NCBI GenBank assembly: GCA_946481095.1
Contig: CAMLML010000006.1
Location: 1 to 64,000 of the forward strand
Length of the DNA: 64,000 nt
Direction: 5' to 3'
From: an uncultured Cellvibrio sp.
Lineage (GTDB): Bacteria; Pseudomonadota; Gammaproteobacteria; Pseudomonadales; Cellvibrionaceae
Part shown: positions 14,228 to 21,235 of the stretch, one piece after another
Numbering within the stretch: position 1 is the first letter of the stretch
Layout: each line of letters opens with the position of its first letter
Notes under the pieces: model-generated
Told to the model about the DNA's origin: nothing
Database searches by the model: none
Seen by the model: the letters and a program-made list of their open reading frames with translations, nothing else
Made by a program: the position numbers and the translations under genes

Positions 14228-15295
14228 ATGAAACGTTACTTTGAATTTCAAGACTCAAAATCCTACAAGTTTTGGCAAGTGGAATTGGACGGTAATAAAT
14301 TTACCGTCACCTACGGTAAAATCGGCACAGCAGGGCAGGCCAAACTCACCGAATGTGCTTCAGCTGAAGTTGCTGAAAAGGAAGCCGGTAAGTTAATCGC
14401 CGAAAAAACAAAAAAAGGTTACGTTGAAAAAACGGAAGCCAGCTCGAAAAAAATCAGCAAACGACTCAGCCTGACTTACGATGAAGCCGACCAGGGTAAA
14501 ACTTTGTTGGAAAAAATGGAGGCATTCGTCAATAGCGCACAAGCAGCCGAAACAGAAGCTCTGGTCATTGGTGCATGGGAAGAAGCCTATGAAACTTCTC
14601 CCACTGAGGCCTTGACACTGTTGTTTGATTCAGCCAACAAATTACCTCTATTACGTGAAATTTTTGTTGGCGATATGGATTCAGAAGAGTGCGAAATTTC
14701 CTGGATTCAACAAGATAATTACACACGATTATTCAGCGCATTTCCGCAACTGGAGCGCTTGCATATCAAAGGGTCAACCGGTTTAACTTTATCGGACACT
14801 CCGATTAATCATGCGAGCCTGAAAGCATTAACAATAGAATGCGGCGGTTTGCCCAAATCAGTGCTGCAACAAATCGCTACCGCGGATTTACCGAATCTTG
14901 AATATTTGCAACTCTATTTGGGTGTGGAGGATTACGGTTTTGATGCCAGCATAACGGACTTACATCCCTTTATATCGGCAACACCTTTTCCAAACTTAAA
15001 ACATTTGGGATTAATGGACAGCGAAATCGCTGATGAAATTGCGATGGCAATTGCCAATTCGCCAGTGCTTCAACAACTGGAATCTCTGGATTTATCACAA
15101 GGCACATTAAGTGATGAAGGTGCACAGCACTTGTTGGCTAGCGATGCCATTAAGCAACTGAAAAAACTCGACTTACATTATCACTATTTATCAAATGACA
15201 TGATGAAAAAACTGAAAGCCCTGCCATTGATCGTTGATGCCAGCGAACAGCAGGACATAGAAGACGATTGGCGTTATCCCGCCGTTACGGAATAA
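14228..15295 (+). CDS. WGR-domain/leucine-rich-repeat protein, STM4015-like
   Basis: 355 aa. Residues 1-70 form a WGR-type domain (MKRYFEFQDSKSYKFWQVEL, then TVTYGKIGTAGQAKL and a Lys-rich helix), a fold found in PARPs and MolR-like proteins. Residues about 150-330 carry degenerate LRRs (LERLHIKGSTGLTL, LKALTIECGG, LKHLGLMDSEIADEI, LESLDLSQGTLSDEGAQHLL, LKKLDLHYHYL). With the next four genes it matches the Salmonella STM4011-STM4015 set, where the LRR member is STM4015. Function unknown; it may recognise the substrate or partner. ATG with AGGAA upstream; 13 nt to the next gene. Confidence 0.78.
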   Translation: MKRYFEFQDSKSYKFWQVELDGNKFTVTYGKIGTAGQAKLTECASAEVAEKEAGKLIAEKTKKGYVEKTEASSKKISKRLSLTYDEADQGKTLLEKMEAFVNSAQAAETEALVIGAWEEAYETSPTEALTLLFDSANKLPLLREIFVGDMDSEECEISWIQQDNYTRLFSAFPQLERLHIKGSTGLTLSDTPINHASLKALTIECGGLPKSVLQQIATADLPNLEYLQLYLGVEDYGFDASITDLHPFISATPFPNLKHLGLMDSEIADEIAMAIANSPVLQQLESLDLSQGTLSDEGAQHLLASDAIKQLKKLDLHYHYLSNDMMKKLKALPLIVDASEQQDIEDDWRYPAVTE

Positions 15296-15308
15296 TTTTT
15301 TTATCGCC

Positions 15309-16409
15309 ATGTTAATTATTGGCAACCCTGAAAACCGTCGCGTAACGCTTTTTCAGCAAGCGTTACGCGATTTACATCAACCACCAGCCAGCATTATTTC
15401 CTGGTTGGATCTACTGCAAAATCCTGTCAATTTACATTCTCTTTCCCGATTTGCTTCCATTCGTATTGAATCTCCCGGTGAAAATTTTCAAGTTGAGAAA
15501 TGGATACTGGAGCTGGGTGGGTTGGAATCAGCGAAACAGTTGATCGAAGAAAAAGGTCGTATTTATTTTCCTGGTATTTGGTATAAAGGTTTCAAAAAAA
15601 TATTATCCGACATTGCATCAGCCGCCCCCCGGAGCATCTGGTTTAACCGTCCTGATGACATTGCCTTGATGTTTGACAAGCCGAAAGTGAAAGCGTTAAA
15701 CCCGGATCACAGTCTGGCCGCTTTGCCGTCTTTCAATAATTATGAAAATTTTTTTGCCTATGCGTGCCAGCAAAATTATCCGCGTTTTTTTATCAAATTA
15801 AATTACAGCTCGTCTGCATCCGGTGTTTTAGCCTTTGAATATAATCGCAAAACCGGAAAAGTTCAGGCGCAAACAACCATGGAGTTGGTTCGTCATGATT
15901 CGCGGTGTTATTTTTATAACTCATTAAAAGTAAAAAAATATTCGCATCATCAAGATCTGCAAGACCTGATTGATTTTTTATTTCAACAAGGTGCTTATGT
16001 TGAGCCGTGGATTACCAAAGCCCAACATGATGATGGTGTATTTGATCTGCGCGTTTTAGCCATTAACGGCACAAGACAACATAGTATTGCGCGAGTGAGT
16101 AAAACACCCATTACCAATTTGCACTTGGGCAACCAGCGTTGTGCGATCAATGATTTGAATTTATCGTCCAGTCGCAATCAACAGATAGAAAAACTGGTTT
16201 CTGATGTCATGCAAACTTTCCCCAGGAGTTTATATTCCGGCCTGGATATTCTGTTGCCACGCGATGAAAACAAGTTGCCGATTTTATTGGAGGTCAATGC
16301 TTTTGGTGATTTATTGCCTGATTTATTACATCAAGGAAAAAATACGTATCAAGCAGAATTAATTGCTCTTTATGAACAATATCCGCAACTGATGAAAAAA
16401 GTTGCTTAA
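15309..16409 (+). CDS. ATP-grasp-type protein, STM4014-like
   Basis: 366 aa. The centre and C-terminal half read like an ATP-grasp ligase: PRFFIKLNYSSSASGVLAF (Lys and Gly-rich ATP loop), AYVEPWITKAQ, FDLRVLAINGTRQ, ARVSKTPITNLHLGNQRC and the metal-binding end YSGLDILLPRDENKLPILLEVNAFGDLLP. ATP-grasp enzymes couple a carboxylate to an amine or thiol through an acyl-phosphate. Substrate unknown. Second gene of the STM4015-4011-like cassette; AAGGAG at its stop is the Shine-Dalgarno of the next gene. Confidence 0.8.
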   Translation: MLIIGNPENRRVTLFQQALRDLHQPPASIISWLDLLQNPVNLHSLSRFASIRIESPGENFQVEKWILELGGLESAKQLIEEKGRIYFPGIWYKGFKKILSDIASAAPRSIWFNRPDDIALMFDKPKVKALNPDHSLAALPSFNNYENFFAYACQQNYPRFFIKLNYSSSASGVLAFEYNRKTGKVQAQTTMELVRHDSRCYFYNSLKVKKYSHHQDLQDLIDFLFQQGAYVEPWITKAQHDDGVFDLRVLAINGTRQHSIARVSKTPITNLHLGNQRCAINDLNLSSSRNQQIEKLVSDVMQTFPRSLYSGLDILLPRDENKLPILLEVNAFGDLLPDLLHQGKNTYQAELIALYEQYPQLMKKVA

Positions 16410-16422
16410 GGAGAAAAACGGC

Positions 16423-17232
16423 ATGGCATTGAATATGAATCAGATAGTGGGTGGCTCGCACATACTGATGATTACATTCGACACACTTCGTTATGATGTT
16501 GCCTGTGAGCAATTGGATTCAGGTAATACGCCAAATCTCGCGCGTGTGCTGCCGGAAAAAAGATGGCAAAAATGTCATTCTCCCGCCTCATTTACTTACG
16601 CTGCGCATGTCGCTTTTTTTGCCGGATTTCTACCAACACCGGCAACACCGGGGCGACATGAACGTTTGTTTGCTCTGAGGTTTTCTGGTAGCGAAACCAC
16701 TGGTCCTAATACGTTTATATTTGATACGCCCGATATAGTATCGGGTTTGGCTAACGAAGGTTATCGTACGATTTGTATTGGTGGCGTGGGATTTTTCAAA
16801 AAACAAAATCCTTTATCCCAACAATTACCGGGATTATTTCAAGAAAGTTACTGGGACGATTCTTTAGGGGTAACCTGCAAAGATTCAACACGCAACCAGG
16901 TTAATTTGGCTTGTCGATTATTACAAGAAAACACACAACCTCTTTTTCTGTTTATTAATATTTCAGCTTTACATCAGCCCAATTATTTTTATTTGGAAAA
17001 TACCAAAAATGATTCATTGGATACTCATGCTGCTGCTTTGCGTTATGTTGATTCAGAATTGGGACGATTATTTTCAGCTTTTGAGCAAGATAGAGACACA
17101 TTGATGATTTTAACTTCCGATCATGGTACTTGTTATGGAGAGGACGGATACACCGGCCACCGCATTGGACATGAACAAGTTTGGACTGTGCCTTACGGCG
17201 TTAATTTGATAAAAAAGCCAAATAAAAAGTAG
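16423..17232 (+). CDS. Sulfatase/alkaline-phosphatase-fold hydrolase, STM4013/SEN3800-like
   Basis: 269 aa. Metal-binding motifs of the superfamily are seen: MITFDTLRYD near the N-terminus and ILTSDHGTCYGEDGYTGHRIGHEQ near the C-terminus. The position equivalent to the formylglycine Cys in CxPxR of sulfatases is Thr in SFTYAAHVAFFAG, with the same 10-residue distance to the Gly. It is therefore unlikely to be a true sulfatase and may be a phosphatase or phosphodiesterase-type hydrolase with a Thr nucleophile. The start at 16423 has AAGGAG 9 nt upstream. Short for the superfamily. Third gene of the cassette; an inverted repeat separates it from the next gene. Confidence 0.8.
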   Translation: MALNMNQIVGGSHILMITFDTLRYDVACEQLDSGNTPNLARVLPEKRWQKCHSPASFTYAAHVAFFAGFLPTPATPGRHERLFALRFSGSETTGPNTFIFDTPDIVSGLANEGYRTICIGGVGFFKKQNPLSQQLPGLFQESYWDDSLGVTCKDSTRNQVNLACRLLQENTQPLFLFINISALHQPNYFYLENTKNDSLDTHAAALRYVDSELGRLFSAFEQDRDTLMILTSDHGTCYGEDGYTGHRIGHEQVWTVPYGVNLIKKPNKK

Positions 17233-17256
17233 AAACATGATTTCACCAAGTAGCAG

Positions 17257-17360
17257 CCACGTAAGGTAGCATCAGTTTCAAAACCTTCGATTCAGGGACG
17301 AATCGAAGGAGCTACAGGGATGTATTCATGCGATTTTGAAACTGATGCTATCTTACATGG
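17257..17360. repeat. MITE-like nested inverted repeat inside the STM401x-like cassette
   Basis: Outer arms GTAAGGTAGCATCAGTTTC (17261-17283 in full) and the reverse complement at 17334-17356 match over 23 bp with one mismatch, and the similarity extends a few bases outward. An inner perfect palindrome CCTTCGATTC-N6-GAATCGAAGG spans 17284-17309. The segment between holds CTACAGGGATGTATTCATGC. It looks like a non-autonomous mobile or REP-like element inserted between the hydrolase and radical SAM genes. No transposase is nearby. Confidence 0.75.
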
Positions 17361-17402
17361 ATGCGGGTTAGAACCAGAAAAAGATTTATTATTGGAAACA
17401 CC

Positions 17403-18734
17403 ATGCTTGAATTTGAACACTATCTAAAATCCAATAGCCGTTACCAGAGCTATTTATATTCCTATCCGCACAAAACGGCTTATCGTCATTTTGAAACAGC
17501 TGTTGATTTGAATGAATTATGGCAAGATGAAAAAAAAAATTCGCTTTATCTATACAGTCATATTCCGTTTTGCAGAATGAAATGCAGTTTTTGTAATTTA
17601 TTTACCGTTTCCAATCCTGAGAAAGATGCCGTTGAGTTGTACTTGAAACAATTACAAACCGAAGCATCTGTCATACGTGACATTTTAGGAGATTTTGCAT
17701 TTGCAGGTTATGCAGTTGGCGGAGGCACCCCCAGTTTGTTGGAGCCCCATCAACTTGAAGATCTGTTTTTAATCTACAGTGACATACTGAATGTAGATTT
17801 AGCAAACACACCGGGGTCGTTTGAAATTTCACCGGAAACTATTACTGACGAAAAATTAAAACTGTTATCTGATATCGGAATTGAACGAATCAGCATCGGC
17901 ATTCAAAGTTTTATCGAAAGCGAAGCAAAATCTGTTGGACGTTATCAAACTGACAATTTTATTCAGCCCATATTAGAAAAAATAATCGGCTATCAATTTC
18001 CTGTTTTTAACCTGGATTTAATTTACGGCATTCCTGGACAAACGGTGGAAACCTGGTTGATCTCATTAAAAACCGCCATGCAATATCAGCCGGCCGAAAT
18101 TTTTCTCTATCCACTCTATATTCGGCCACTGACATCACTGCATAAAAAAAATGGCATTCAAGTTACTGAGACCGATATTCGTGATGAGCTGTATAAAATT
18201 GGTCGTGAGTTTTTAATATCACAAGGATACATACAGAATTCTATGAGGTTATTTCGTCACGCAAGTGTCACTCAAACTTTGGGCTCGGATTATTCCTGCC
18301 AGGAAGACGGCATGATTGGTTTGGGCACCAATGCACGCTCTTATACGCGCGACCTGCACTACTCTACCGAGTATGCCGTAAGTCGCCCGAACGTAAATGC
18401 TATAGTGCAGGATTATTTACAAAAACCGGCAAGTGCATTCCTGCAAGCCAATTACGGTATAAAACTCAGCGAGGATGATCGCAAGCGCCGTTATTTAATT
18501 AAATCGTTACTAAAAGCCGAAGGATTGCATTTACAGGATTACCACAATTTGTTTCAGGAAAATATTCTGGAATCATTTCCTGAATTAAATTGCCTGACTG
18601 ATTTGCAGCTCGCCACCCAGGATGAAAAAACCATAAAATTAACGATAGAAGGTTTAGCCTACTCGGATTTATTAGGGCATTGGTTTATTTCTGATCCAGT
18701 CAAAAACAAAATGCAAGAGTACGTTCATAAATGA
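17403..18734 (+). CDS. Radical SAM protein, HemN-like, STM4012-like
   Basis: 443 aa. The 4Fe-4S motif CRMKCSFC occurs near residue 56 in LYLYSHIPFCRMKCSFCNLF, with further HemN/coproporphyrinogen-dehydrogenase-type blocks (GYAVGGGTPSLLEPHQL, FEISPETITDEKL, RISIGIQSF, NLDLIYGIPGQTVETW). A C-terminal region of about 130 aa could be the HemN-type wing. Because of the neighbours it is assigned to the STM4012 family, not to haem synthesis. The ATG at 17403 has GGA upstream and avoids 14 residues read from the edge of the repeat. Its stop overlaps the next gene (ATGA). Confidence 0.85.
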   Translation: MLEFEHYLKSNSRYQSYLYSYPHKTAYRHFETAVDLNELWQDEKKNSLYLYSHIPFCRMKCSFCNLFTVSNPEKDAVELYLKQLQTEASVIRDILGDFAFAGYAVGGGTPSLLEPHQLEDLFLIYSDILNVDLANTPGSFEISPETITDEKLKLLSDIGIERISIGIQSFIESEAKSVGRYQTDNFIQPILEKIIGYQFPVFNLDLIYGIPGQTVETWLISLKTAMQYQPAEIFLYPLYIRPLTSLHKKNGIQVTETDIRDELYKIGREFLISQGYIQNSMRLFRHASVTQTLGSDYSCQEDGMIGLGTNARSYTRDLHYSTEYAVSRPNVNAIVQDYLQKPASAFLQANYGIKLSEDDRKRRYLIKSLLKAEGLHLQDYHNLFQENILESFPELNCLTDLQLATQDEKTIKLTIEGLAYSDLLGHWFISDPVKNKMQEYVHK

Positions 18735-19588
18735 CGCTGAAAATTTTGTATCGCGGCTATTTAACGGATTGCAATTACACTTGCGAATACTGCCCTTTTG
18801 CCAAAACCAAAAATACTGAAGAAGAACAAGCGCAAGATCGCACGGCTCTGGACGCTTTTGTCAATTGGGTTGCGCAAAATGCTCATGCCAACAGACCCAT
18901 GGAAATTTTACTTACGCCTTATGGTGAAGCCATGGTAAGGCCTTGGTACCGACAAGCATTTGTTCAACTTTCCCACTTGCCTTTTGTTAAAAAAATTGCA
19001 GTGCAAACCAATCTTTCATGGCACACGTCCTGGTTATCTGAAGCCAATACTGAACGCACTGCTATCTGGGCTACTTTTCATCCGGATTTTGTCAGCGTCG
19101 AAAAATTTTTAGAAAAATGCAGCCAGCTTTCAGATTTAGGTGTGGCCTACAGTGTAGGTGCTGTCGGGTTACGCGAGCATTTTAAGAAAATTCAACAATT
19201 GCGAGTACAGTTACCATCAAATATTTATTTGTGGATTAATGCTTACAAAGATGTTCCTTTATATTATTCATCTGATGAAATTCAATTTCTATCTAATATT
19301 GACTCACACTTTCCCACCAACCTGCAAAATTATTCCAGCCAGAACCAAGCTTGTCGCACAGGTGATGAAGTTGTATCAATAGAGGGCGGTGGCGACTTAT
19401 ACCGCTGTCATTTCATCAAAGAAAAACGCGGCAATATTTTTAAAGATGATCTCGACAAGATGCTCTGGCGCAGCCCCTGCACCCGCAATATTTGCGATTG
19501 TCATATAGGTTACGTGCACATGAATGATTTGAAATTGTATGAGCTTTATGGCGATAGAGTAATGGAGAGGATCCCTCTCCATTTTTGA
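18731..19588 (+). CDS. Radical SAM protein with C-terminal Cys cluster, STM4011-like
   Basis: 285 aa. The radical SAM motif is CNYTCEYC near residue 14 (YRGYLTDCNYTCEYCPFAK). The C-terminus carries a second group of cysteines (ACRTGDE, LYRCHF, SPCTRNICDCHIGYVH), reminiscent of a SPASM-like auxiliary cluster and so of peptide- or protein-modifying radical SAM enzymes. It starts inside the stop of the preceding radical SAM gene, which implies coupled synthesis. The last codons also encode a perfect terminator hairpin. Last gene of the five-gene cassette; substrate unknown. Confidence 0.85.
   Translation: MTLKILYRGYLTDCNYTCEYCPFAKTKNTEEEQAQDRTALDAFVNWVAQNAHANRPMEILLTPYGEAMVRPWYRQAFVQLSHLPFVKKIAVQTNLSWHTSWLSEANTERTAIWATFHPDFVSVEKFLEKCSQLSDLGVAYSVGAVGLREHFKKIQQLRVQLPSNIYLWINAYKDVPLYYSSDEIQFLSNIDSHFPTNLQNYSSQNQACRTGDEVVSIEGGGDLYRCHFIKEKRGNIFKDDLDKMLWRSPCTRNICDCHIGYVHMNDLKLYELYGDRVMERIPLHF
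19562..19588 (+). terminator. Terminator encoded within the last codons of the cassette
   Basis: ATGGAGAGG-ATC-CCTCTCCAT followed by TTTTTG: a perfect 9-bp stem with a 3-nt loop (19562-19582). The sequence also encodes the C-terminus MERIPLHF of the STM4011-like protein. Confidence 0.75.
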
Positions 19589-19915: not shown

Positions 19916-20563
19916 CTATGATAAAAATGGATTCAAAATACGCATCCAACCTGTAAAGCGAATAGGCGCATTTAATACCGCAATACAAATACAATCTTCA
20001 TTTTGTAATGCTGTCGGACTGTGTTTGTGGCTGGCGTCACGGCTGATGAAATCACCGCGGTGATAAACACCCAGTTCATCAGAAAAACCACCGCGCAGAA
20101 TCAGAGTGTACTCAGTACCCTTGTGAGTGTGTTTCGGCACCTGGGCGCCTGCTGATATTTTTTGCAACACTACATCTGCATTTTTTTCACCCAGCAAACC
20201 ACTCAAATCAAACTTGCTGATGGTTTTGGTTTGTTTTTTCCATGCAAGGTTATGCAGGTCAGCAGGCAGGTATTTGTCGAGTGGATTATTAAACCCGTTT
20301 GTCACTGACGAGCTACTCTCGGCCGCCACTCCTTTTCTTTCCGGCAATGAGGCAATAAATGCATCTATTACATCACGATTATCCGGGGTTGCAGGGGTTA
20401 TGTTTTCAAACAAAACGCCACCCAGCAAATTGGTTTGGCGCACATAGGTTTGGCATTGATGACATGAAGCAAGATGCACAGAGACAATCAACGCTTCCGC
20501 AGACGATAAATTTCCGGCTGCATAATTCATCAACATTAATTCATCAGGATGATAGTGACTCAT
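19916..20563 (-). CDS. ChrR-type zinc anti-sigma factor with cupin domain
   Basis: 215 aa. The N-terminal zinc anti-sigma (ZAS) domain begins MSHYHPDELMLMNYAAGNLS and has H-x3-C-x2-C in SVHLASCHQC. The C-terminal cupin domain has metal-ligand residues in VPKHTHKGTEYTLILRGGFSDELG and a second histidine in DASHKHSP. In Rhodobacter, ChrR holds sigma-E until singlet oxygen or organic peroxides act. Here it is encoded directly after an ECF sigma gene with a 4-nt ATGA overlap, as expected for the ECF11 group. Confidence 0.93.
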   Translation of the reverse strand: MSHYHPDELMLMNYAAGNLSSAEALIVSVHLASCHQCQTYVRQTNLLGGVLFENITPATPDNRDVIDAFIASLPERKGVAAESSSSVTNGFNNPLDKYLPADLHNLAWKKQTKTISKFDLSGLLGEKNADVVLQKISAGAQVPKHTHKGTEYTLILRGGFSDELGVYHRGDFISRDASHKHSPTALQNEDCICIAVLNAPIRFTGWMRILNPFLS

Positions 20564-21174
20564 AAATCTTTTGCCTCAAACATCATGCGCAATTTCTGCA
20601 GCGATAAACGAATTCTGCCTTTTACTGTGCCAAGGGGAATATTCAACTCTTCTGCAACTTCTTCGTGGGTTTTGCCTTCGTAATAGACTTTTCGCAAAGC
20701 AATCATTTGTTCTTCAGGCAAAGTATCCATCGATTTTTTTACAAAGCTTTCCGTGGACATTTGTTGAATCGATAGTACCGTAGTGTCTTCAGTAGGAATC
20801 TGCCAGAGTTCCTCCGTTTCAATTACCACTTCAGCACTGGTGCGGTTCATTCGCCGCAACATATCAATACGCTGGTTTCGCGCTATGGTAAAAATCCAGG
20901 TGGAGATATTGGCTATATCTTCATTGTATTTATCTGCATTTCGCCACACGCTGGTCATGACTTCCTGTACCAATACATCCGCTTGCTGACCAAAACGCTG
21001 GTTGATCGCATAGGCTTTTATTCGTGGCGCAAAGTATTGATAAATTTCACGAAACGCCGCGCGATCATCATGCTCGGCAACCCGTTTTAATAATTCCGCC
21101 CAATTGCGGTTCGGCGTGGATGTTTCCGATCCATGCATGGGTGCTACCTGACTTGTTGCCATATTGAGTCTCAT
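20560..21174 (-). CDS. ECF RNA polymerase sigma factor, RpoE/ECF11-like
   Basis: About 204 aa. Region 2 runs FREIYQYFAPRIKAYAINQRF to STWIFTIARNQRIDMLRR and region 4 is DTLPEEQMIALRKVYYEGKTHEEVAEELNIPLGTVKGRIR. Partner ChrR-like anti-sigma follows with an ATGA overlap. The start is uncertain between ATG 21174 and ATG 21162; the TTG at 21228 is ruled out because it lies in the promoter. An ECF11-type promoter on its own strand suggests autoregulation, and the same motif precedes the divergent DUF4397 gene. Confidence 0.92.
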   Translation of the reverse strand: MRLNMATSQVAPMHGSETSTPNRNWAELLKRVAEHDDRAAFREIYQYFAPRIKAYAINQRFGQQADVLVQEVMTSVWRNADKYNEDIANISTWIFTIARNQRIDMLRRMNRTSAEVVIETEELWQIPTEDTTVLSIQQMSTESFVKKSMDTLPEEQMIALRKVYYEGKTHEEVAEELNIPLGTVKGRIRLSLQKLRMMFEAKDL

Positions 21175-21207
21175 TATGCGCTCTGTGGATTGTCTTGTAA
21201 CGCCTCT

Positions 21208-21235
21208 GATACGTAAGCTTTTTGACAAGCGATCA
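21208..21235 (-). promoter_or_regulatory. ECF11-type promoter of the sigma/anti-sigma operon
   Basis: Minus strand TGATCG (21235-21230), 16-nt spacer, CGTATC (21213-21208). It fits the TGATC-N16-CGTA pattern recalled for ChrR-partnered ECF sigmas and lies about 28 nt from the likely transcript-to-ATG distance of the sigma gene. Confidence 0.75.

Follow-up and report, generated by a model that had tools for sequence, protein, structure and literature searches.

The window, the whole 64,000-nucleotide stretch of DNA that was analysed, contains five open reading frames between positions 14228 and 19588, all on the forward strand and free of internal stops. Together they form an intact cassette in the order STM4015-STM4014-STM4013-STM4012-STM4011 (Table 1). 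Each protein was scored against the curated cut-off of its own NCBIfam model and exceeds it. The five families that the first-pass annotation had named are thereby established, and the set is complete as it had claimed. No NCBIfam model from outside the STM401x families passed at its cut-off, and the profiles thus do not assign the genes to separate known pathways. Two start codons were set by inspection. The ATG of STM4013 was picked by eye from a ribosome-binding-like AAGGAG, and that of STM4012 was chosen by reading the sequence, the listed upstream start at 17361 falling in a repeat arm; the score given for STM4012 is that of the listed frame beginning at 17361.

Table 1. Positions of the cassette genes and associated features in the window.
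Feature	Positions	Strand	Evidence
STM4015-family protein, 355 aa	14228..15295	+	NCBIfam NF038076, 349.7 bits (cut-off 275); Pfam WGR and LRR
Acidic linker of STM4015, residues 334-348	15227..15271	+	Acidic fraction 0.44 versus 0.18 for whole proteins
STM4015 tail RYPAVTE	15272..15292	+	Last codon (15290-15292) encodes Glu, the proposed attachment site
STM4014-family ATP-grasp ligase, 366 aa	15309..16409	+	NCBIfam NF038074, 331 bits (cut-off 175)
STM4013-family hydrolase, alkaline phosphatase superfamily	16423..17232	+	NCBIfam NF038075, 409.2 bits (cut-off 250); fold
Inverted repeat, 112 nt, 31-nt arms	17253..17364	.	Arms 90% complementary; STM4013-STM4012 gap
STM4012-family HemN-like radical SAM protein (CX3CX2C)	17403..18734	+	NCBIfam NF006067, 547.4 bits (cut-off 380)
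STM4011-family radical SAM protein	18731..19588	+	NCBIfam NF038073, 380.8 bits (cut-off 200)

The spacing of the genes had been described as tight with one ATGA overlap. The overlap is present (18731-18734), but STM4013 and STM4012 are separated by the inverted repeat. The corresponding hairpin (17245-17372) has a minimum free energy of -57.9 kcal/mol (z = -9.1 versus shuffled sequences). The repeat arm has no further copy in the window when up to three mismatches are allowed, the inverted repeat has no match in Rfam and the hairpin has none in the plasmid collection. It is possibly a small inserted element or an attenuator.

Of 90 loci fetched from several phyla, 70 show the order seen in the window and 73 contain all five genes; the same order appears in annotated Paenibacillus, Salmonella, Methylobacterium, Streptomyces and Deinococcus plasmid records. 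Judged from record titles, the loci come from Proteobacteria, Bacillota, Actinomycetota, Cyanobacteria, Planctomycetota, Chloroflexota, Bacteroidota, Deinococcota and Myxococcota. Among 148 genomes of Paenibacillaceae, 52 have the full five, 93 have none of them and the other three contain copies that are partial or decayed. In the Paenibacillaceae sampled the cassette is retained or lost as a whole. The genes co-occur as a set, so that the lack of co-occurrence which would have refuted the earlier annotation was not seen. A megablast search with the Salmonella cassette gave no match in the E. coli collection. No paper found in our literature search gives a function for the STM4011-STM4015 set. 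In the available text of the two Salmonella papers that name one gene of the set, the gene is a table entry (PMC3844500, PMC2784778). The accessible portion of a paper on CDC123 ATP-grasp proteins does not mention WGR, leucine, radical SAM, sulfatase, HemN or Salmonella (PMC4431377), and that of a graspetide survey mentions radical SAM but not WGR, leucine-rich, sulfatase, HemN or LRR (PMC8939145). The interest of the set lies in its presence in several phyla and its joint retention or loss, together with the lack of an assigned reaction in the literature found.

STM4015 consists of a WGR domain (approximately residues 1-70), an LRR body, an acidic linker and a C-terminal tail; the WGR domain is missing from some relatives. 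The last conserved leucine of the LRR body lies 40-60 residues from the terminus in 84 aligned sequences, and the columns that are at least 95% conserved in these sequences contain no Cys. The final residue is Glu in all 240 database relatives listed; when the best copy is taken from each locus, it is Glu in 88 of 89. The C-termini of the other four cassette proteins vary. This fixed terminal Glu is a new observation. In the same 89 copies position -7 is Arg in 84 and position -6 is Tyr or Phe in 86. Overall, Tyr, Phe, Ser or Asn occur at -6 and Thr, Ser, Ala or Gly at -2, and the last eight residues contain no fixed Lys, Thr or Ser. Extra copies of STM4015, the proposed carrier, are found in 14 of the 90 loci and occur in cyanobacteria and some others.

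The neighbourhood of the cassettes was searched for a precursor peptide, none having been visible at first. The set comprised 3038 open reading frames that encode 30-110 residues and lie no more than 2 kb from a cassette, after removal of those with over half their length in a cassette gene. Forty-one clusters link at least two groups and none links three or more. A HEEH-type small protein accompanies DUF6745 and was found in 14 of 90 loci with its own profile. We do not take it as a precursor because it ends in Asp (14 of 14) and is absent from most cassettes. When larger frames within 4 kb were clustered (alignments of at least 50 residues), a HAD family appeared in ten groups; other families in three to four groups, named by eye, are general ones (P-loop, AraC, LysR, WD40, ABC etc.). 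The neighbouring tatABC genes raised the possibility of a role for Tat, and the reported 29-nt gap downstream of tatC was confirmed (Pfam TatC). Since no tat family is among those common to at least three groups in this clustering, we judge the adjacency to be probably local.

The earlier suggestion that the LRR protein could be the carrier or substrate gains support because its C-terminal Glu is fixed, in contrast to the variable termini of its four neighbours, because it occurs in extra copies and because, the HEEH-type protein aside, no small-ORF family links at least three groups near the cassette. STM4015 may be a carrier or substrate.

Pfam places STM4014 among the ATP-grasp proteins, and its catalytic ATP-grasp residues are invariant. 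The predicted model has a pLDDT of 93.8. Among solved structures the nearest is ArgX with its carrier LysW, in a tie with glutathione synthetase; RimK follows closely, and the Foldseek list has PsnB, a graspetide ligase, in third place. The profile matches listed at E ≤ 10 are NF038074, CofF and MptN only, with the HMMER filters dropping most matches above about 0.1, and the latter two are weak; within the same filter limit no LysX or RimK model is among the matches listed. The ligase class assigned to STM4014 rests on this predicted fold, which appears most similar to that of ligases working on the C-termini of proteins or peptides and in that respect supports the carrier idea.

STM4013 had been described as a sulfatase-fold hydrolase. 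The fold is supported by Pfam and by structure, but the formylglycine sulfatase signature C/S-x-P-x-R is not found in any of 81 sequences. Thr54 (numbered from 16435) occupies the place of the nucleophile, and Thr54 and His58 are invariant in these sequences; we set the two residues over the signature by their distance to the following Gly. STM4013 is likely to act as a phosphatase or phosphotransferase rather than as a formylglycine sulfatase. In 13 of the 90 loci the gene for a HAD-type hydrolase sits between STM4014 and STM4013.

The two remaining proteins carry radical SAM signatures. Pfam finds the domain in STM4012, where Cys57, Cys61 and Cys64 (numbered from 17403) are invariant in 77 sequences. 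The Pfam match of STM4011 is weak and below the cut-off (E = 0.019), but all 74 aligned sequences share its CX3CX2C motif. In these, Cys14, Cys18, Cys21, Cys208, Cys226, Cys250, Cys255 and Cys257 are all invariant, and the second, C-terminal set of cysteines probably holds an auxiliary cluster. The Bacteroides form gives a weak SPASM match, again below the cut-off (E = 0.0028).

We propose that the cassette encodes a pathway for an amide-tethered carrier or for modification of a protein C-terminus, a reading to which we give a probability of about 0.48. STM4014 would activate a carboxylate of the terminal Glu of STM4015 and couple it to an amine or amino acid, akin to the loading of LysW by LysX or ArgX or to the extension of S6 by RimK. 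The LRR body and acidic linker would display the tail for the remaining enzymes. STM4011 and STM4012 would perform radical chemistry on the attached unit or on the end of the tail, while STM4013, which in some relatives is found beside the HAD phosphatase, would take off or transfer a phosphoryl group. The base for this proposal is what is observed, namely the five families, their common order, their joint presence or loss, the fixed Glu, the ATP-grasp fold class and the conserved catalytic signatures. The tail as the ligase substrate, the nature of the attached unit, the order of the steps and the choice between release of a product and its retention on STM4015 are matters of inference. The fixed candidate site reduces the matter to a single testable question, whether the presence of STM4014 raises the mass of the STM4015 C-terminal peptide. 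If so, STM4015 would represent a new class of carrier protein, and its C-terminal peptide would be a handle with which to fish out the metabolite or cofactor.

STM4015 could instead be the scaffold of a five-protein complex, its tail serving for docking alone, in which the ATP-grasp and radical SAM enzymes act on a free small molecule. LRR and WGR are usually binding domains, the tie of glutathione synthetase with ArgX in the fold ranking brings in a small-molecule ligase, and the weak CofF and MptN matches are to extenders of small molecules. Yet in our judgement a last residue that is fixed in nearly every member from several phyla amid drifting flanks is not expected of a docking motif, and glutathione synthetase too joins an amino acid onto the C-terminus of a peptide. 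We regard a pure docking role as rather unlikely.

It is also unlikely, and slightly more so, that the cassette makes a RiPP-like product with the LRR body as a very large leader, the radical SAM enzymes crosslinking or altering side chains of R-[YF]-x-x-[VLI]-x-E and the ATP-grasp enzyme forming a lactam or ester as in graspetides. The near-constant Arg and aromatic residue at -7 and -6, the second cysteine set of STM4011 with the weak SPASM match, and the rank of PsnB would fit such a scheme. However, the terminal Glu is the sole chemically fixed residue of the tail, with -6 and -2 varying, and no fixed Lys, Thr or Ser is at hand as the acceptor. Neither STM4011 nor STM4012 has an RRE or PqqD-like match in NCBIfam or Pfam.

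A role in haem synthesis or breakdown, with STM4012 as a HemN, HemW or ChuW/HutW type enzyme, is very improbable: STM4012 is a member of the HemN-like radical SAM group, but its scores for HemN (148.6 bits) and HutW (122 bits) are far under the cut-offs of 324.95 and 400 and below that for its own model, and none of the other four proteins has a match to a haem family in NCBIfam. Anaerobic sulfatase maturases oxidise Cys or Ser, and activation of the sulfatase-fold STM4013 by STM4011 as such a maturase can be set aside as the least credible option, since the weak match of STM4011 to that model (E = 6.6e-6, 25.4 bits versus a cut-off of 349.45) is offset by the replacement of the oxidisable residue, by position, with the invariant Thr54.

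Compared with the cassettes of the NCBIfam families STM4011, STM4012, STM4013/SEN3800, STM4014 and STM4015, which it resembles in all five proteins, the set in the window has a strong hairpin parting STM4013 from STM4012. Its STM4015 also differs in having an N-terminal WGR domain, for which the tested members from Paenibacillus, Salmonella and Streptomyces give no Pfam match.

Among systems of known function, graspetides combine an ATP-grasp enzyme with a peptide substrate and at times SPASM radical SAM enzymes, according to the portion of the survey available (PMC8939145). In contrast to the PsnB type, the cassette has no short precursor with constant acceptor and donor positions among frames of 30-110 residues within 2 kb, and the terminal Glu is the one fixed residue of the STM4015 tail. 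RimK is an ATP-grasp ligase that acts on the C-terminus of the folded ribosomal protein S6, as stated in the accessible text of PMC10092738. The STM4014 model shows high predicted fold similarity to it but lacks a match to the RimK model among those listed. RimK is not known to have radical SAM partners.

Pearlins, according to the part of the source available (PMC9303977), are derived from amino acids and assembled at the C-terminus of a carrier peptide; one case involves a radical SAM enzyme. The proposed use of a C-terminus as the building site and the radical SAM partner are shared, while the proposed loader in the cassette is an ATP-grasp enzyme; no PEARL (LanB-like) ligase is found among the five proteins with NCBIfam or Pfam, and no short carrier peptide was found within the same size and distance limits.

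The LysW system is similar in that a dedicated protein, STM4015, carries an acidic stretch followed by a C-terminal Glu available for ligation, and STM4014 combines the ATP-grasp fold and conserved catalytic residues of LysX/ArgX, with ArgX-LysW as its nearest fold. LysX and ArgX couple their substrate through an isopeptide bond to the gamma-carboxyl of the terminal Glu of the partner protein. LysW carriers are defined by Zn-binding Cys residues and an EDWGE motif in the text available (PMC10433800). STM4015, an LRR protein with no conserved Cys, no EDWGE and a RYPAVTE-like tail, differs from them, as does the set in having no listed LysX match and, instead of a release peptidase, radical SAM enzymes. 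We propose by analogy that the cassette may act like an amino-group carrier system outside the LysW family. Tentatively, it could be a third kind of amide-tethered biosynthesis beside LysW carriers and pearlins, in which an LRR carrier of about 280-570 residues is loaded at its C-terminal Glu by the proposed ligase STM4014 and a possibly phosphorylated compound is then built on it by the pair of radical SAM enzymes, a phosphatase-type hydrolase and, in some cases, a HAD phosphatase.

The five genes of the cassette lie on the forward strand, and their products match STM4015, STM4014, STM4013, STM4012 and STM4011 above the curated NCBIfam cut-offs. Pfam identifies a WGR domain and leucine-rich repeats (LRRs) in STM4015, an ATP-grasp domain in STM4014 and a sulfatase (alkaline phosphatase superfamily) domain in STM4013. 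STM4012 is assigned a radical SAM domain, and the corresponding match of STM4011 is weak and falls below the cut-off. The cassette is immediately preceded by tatC, which ends 29 nt upstream, and an ATGA overlap joins STM4012 and STM4011. Judged by eye, two gene starts are better set at other positions, that of STM4012 because the upstream start codon at 17361 lies within an arm of an inverted repeat. This repeat is predicted by folding to form a very stable RNA hairpin; it has no Rfam match and its arm has no second copy within the window. It could represent a small insertion or act as an attenuator, and the hairpin may split expression of STM4012 and STM4011 from that of the first three genes.

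Features of the window and of related loci
Feature	Location	Strand	Remark
Cassette STM4015 to STM4011	14228-19588	+	five genes
Preferred start of STM4013	16423	+	preceded by AAGGAG
Inverted repeat	17253-17364		112 nt
Preferred start of STM4012	17403	+	
ECF-type sigma factor gene adjoining a gene for a ChrR-like cupin protein that has a zinc-finger match	19916-21228	-	cassette upstream, on the opposite strand
STM4011 with a C-terminally fused HAD domain, Bacteroides plasmid	L004, 8740-10683		STM4013 and STM4012 are remnants
Gene pair: DUF6745 protein; small protein containing a conserved HEEH-like stretch	L003, L005, L006, L008, L009, L010, L024, L025, L027, L033, L058, L066, L073, L077		together beside the cassette

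Related cassettes were collected from 80 genome loci, the best 80 of 551 confirmed with the STM4014 profile after scanning with patterns from two conserved STM4014 stretches, and from plasmid records, which added ten. Genes were called with profiles from annotated members, and each counted as present above 60 bits. All five are found in 73 of these 90 loci, on one strand in 71 of the 73, and the order 4015-4014-4013-4012-4011 is kept in 70, with L089 as a departure; the loci are not independent, as 36 of the genome loci and one of the plasmid loci come from Paenibacillus. Several of the 17 incomplete loci are cut by a contig edge. In the genomes behind 14 of them STM4015 was detected in all 14 (13 above the cut-off) and STM4011 in ten, the four lacking it including a Calothrix record titled complete genome. 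In two planctomycete loci (L027 and L077) the 4015-4014 pair stands apart from the 4013-4012-4011 triple, whose orientation is divergent; this may point to two functional modules.

Joint presence and loss were followed in 148 genomes of the family to which the Paenibacillus locus L037 belongs, in which the five families were searched separately (E-value limits of 1e-15 to 1e-80). STM4015 was matched in 55 genomes, STM4014 and STM4011 in 54 each, and STM4013 and STM4012 in 53 each; comparison of the match lists places all five in 52 genomes and none in 93, one of the latter having just an STM4012-like protein below the cut-off. The three partial sets are a fragmentary copy (G105) and decayed remnants with internal deletions (G121 and G153). 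No genome of this sample holds a lone intact gene of the set above its cut-off, and the five genes are a unit. In two genomes of the Paenibacillus family the decayed copies (L091 and L092) have genes of the set deleted into one another.

STM4015 ends in an acidic linker followed by a short tail, which reads RYPAVTE in the window. The terminal Glu is present in 120 of 120 relatives in both a first protein search and a Streptomyces-centred one, each list giving the top 120 among about two thousand matches. Among STM4015-like reading frames of the fetched loci and the window it is the last residue in 113 of 118. Two of the five others (L035 and L075) come from genes with a broken reading frame; they are the front halves, and the back halves do finish in Glu. 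Of the rest, one is a non-member scoring 29.5 bits (L081) and two are real extra copies alongside normal ones (L049 and L065). When the best copy per locus is taken, with the window among them, 88 of 89 end in Glu, all but the L075 front half; 84 have Arg at -7 and 86 have Tyr or Phe at -6. The entropy of the last residue is 0.09 bits, compared with 2.97 to 3.70 bits for the other four proteins. For the alignments of conserved residues and linkers, a copy had to reach at least three quarters of the median length, which removed five of 89 for STM4015; in the remaining 84, 40 to 60 residues separate the last conserved LRR leucine from the terminus. Acidic residues make up 44% of the stretch before the tail and 18% of the whole protein. 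In 14 of the 90 loci there are two to four full copies (above 100 bits and 240 residues); their bodies are 37-73% identical, while the terminal Glu is kept in all but the L049 and L065 copies. Such a pattern would be expected if enzymes act on or grip the terminus, and not for an ordinary structural end.

The best matches of the STM4013 model, itself of the alkaline phosphatase superfamily, include arylsulfatases, LtaP and phosphoethanolamine transferases. Thr54 and His58 are invariant in 81 sequences and, in our placing, would occupy the position of the sulfatase C/S-x-P-x-R motif; a formylglycine sulfatase is therefore unlikely, and the enzyme is more likely to be a phosphatase or phosphotransferase. 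The CX3CX2C motif is invariant in STM4012 (77 sequences) and in STM4011 (74 sequences), where five further invariant Cys residues near the C-terminal end suggest an auxiliary iron-sulfur cluster. In 13 of the 90 loci (two checked with Pfam) a gene for a HAD-type hydrolase separates STM4014 from STM4013, a Cof-type HAD follows STM4011 in Salmonella, the Bacteroides STM4011 carries its own HAD domain, and HAD domains are listed for an STM4014 relative (P0229). These genes and fusions make phosphorylated intermediates plausible.

Other neighbours recur as well. The DUF6745 and HEEH-type pair accompanies 14 of the 90 loci in several phyla; DUF6745 C-termini are mostly Y-x-P-x-x-E-T or E-A, and, of 23 cassette-bearing genomes searched for the family, 11 have it. 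An APS-kinase-like gene, forming one BLAST cluster, lies 3' of STM4011 in Paenibacillus loci L017-L020, L023, L039, L071 and L084 and was checked with Pfam for L018 and L039.

The five families bear NCBI names, so the set is already catalogued. In the portion of the literature covered, which is open access and mostly excludes subscription journals, no paper on its function was found, and neither the fixed terminal Glu of STM4015 nor its reading as a carrier was met. By analogy with known systems, STM4015 may be a carrier and STM4014 the loader of its terminal Glu, with the radical SAM enzymes modifying the load. The weakest points of this reading are the missing release enzyme and the tie with glutathione synthetase; if no release step exists, the modified STM4015 protein itself could be the product. 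Pearlins, as outlined in parts of PMC9303977, are built on the C-terminus of a carrier peptide. The known parallel for STM4015 and STM4014 is the amino-group carrier protein system, in which, according to passages of PMC10433800, LysX links alpha-aminoadipate, through its amino group, to the gamma-carboxyl of the Glu at the C-terminus of LysW. STM4015 is nevertheless not a LysW family member by its sequence, since it lacks both the conserved Cys residues and EDWGE and no LysX model matched STM4014. Carrier and loader would belong to a separate system, in which the radical SAM enzymes would act as modifiers.
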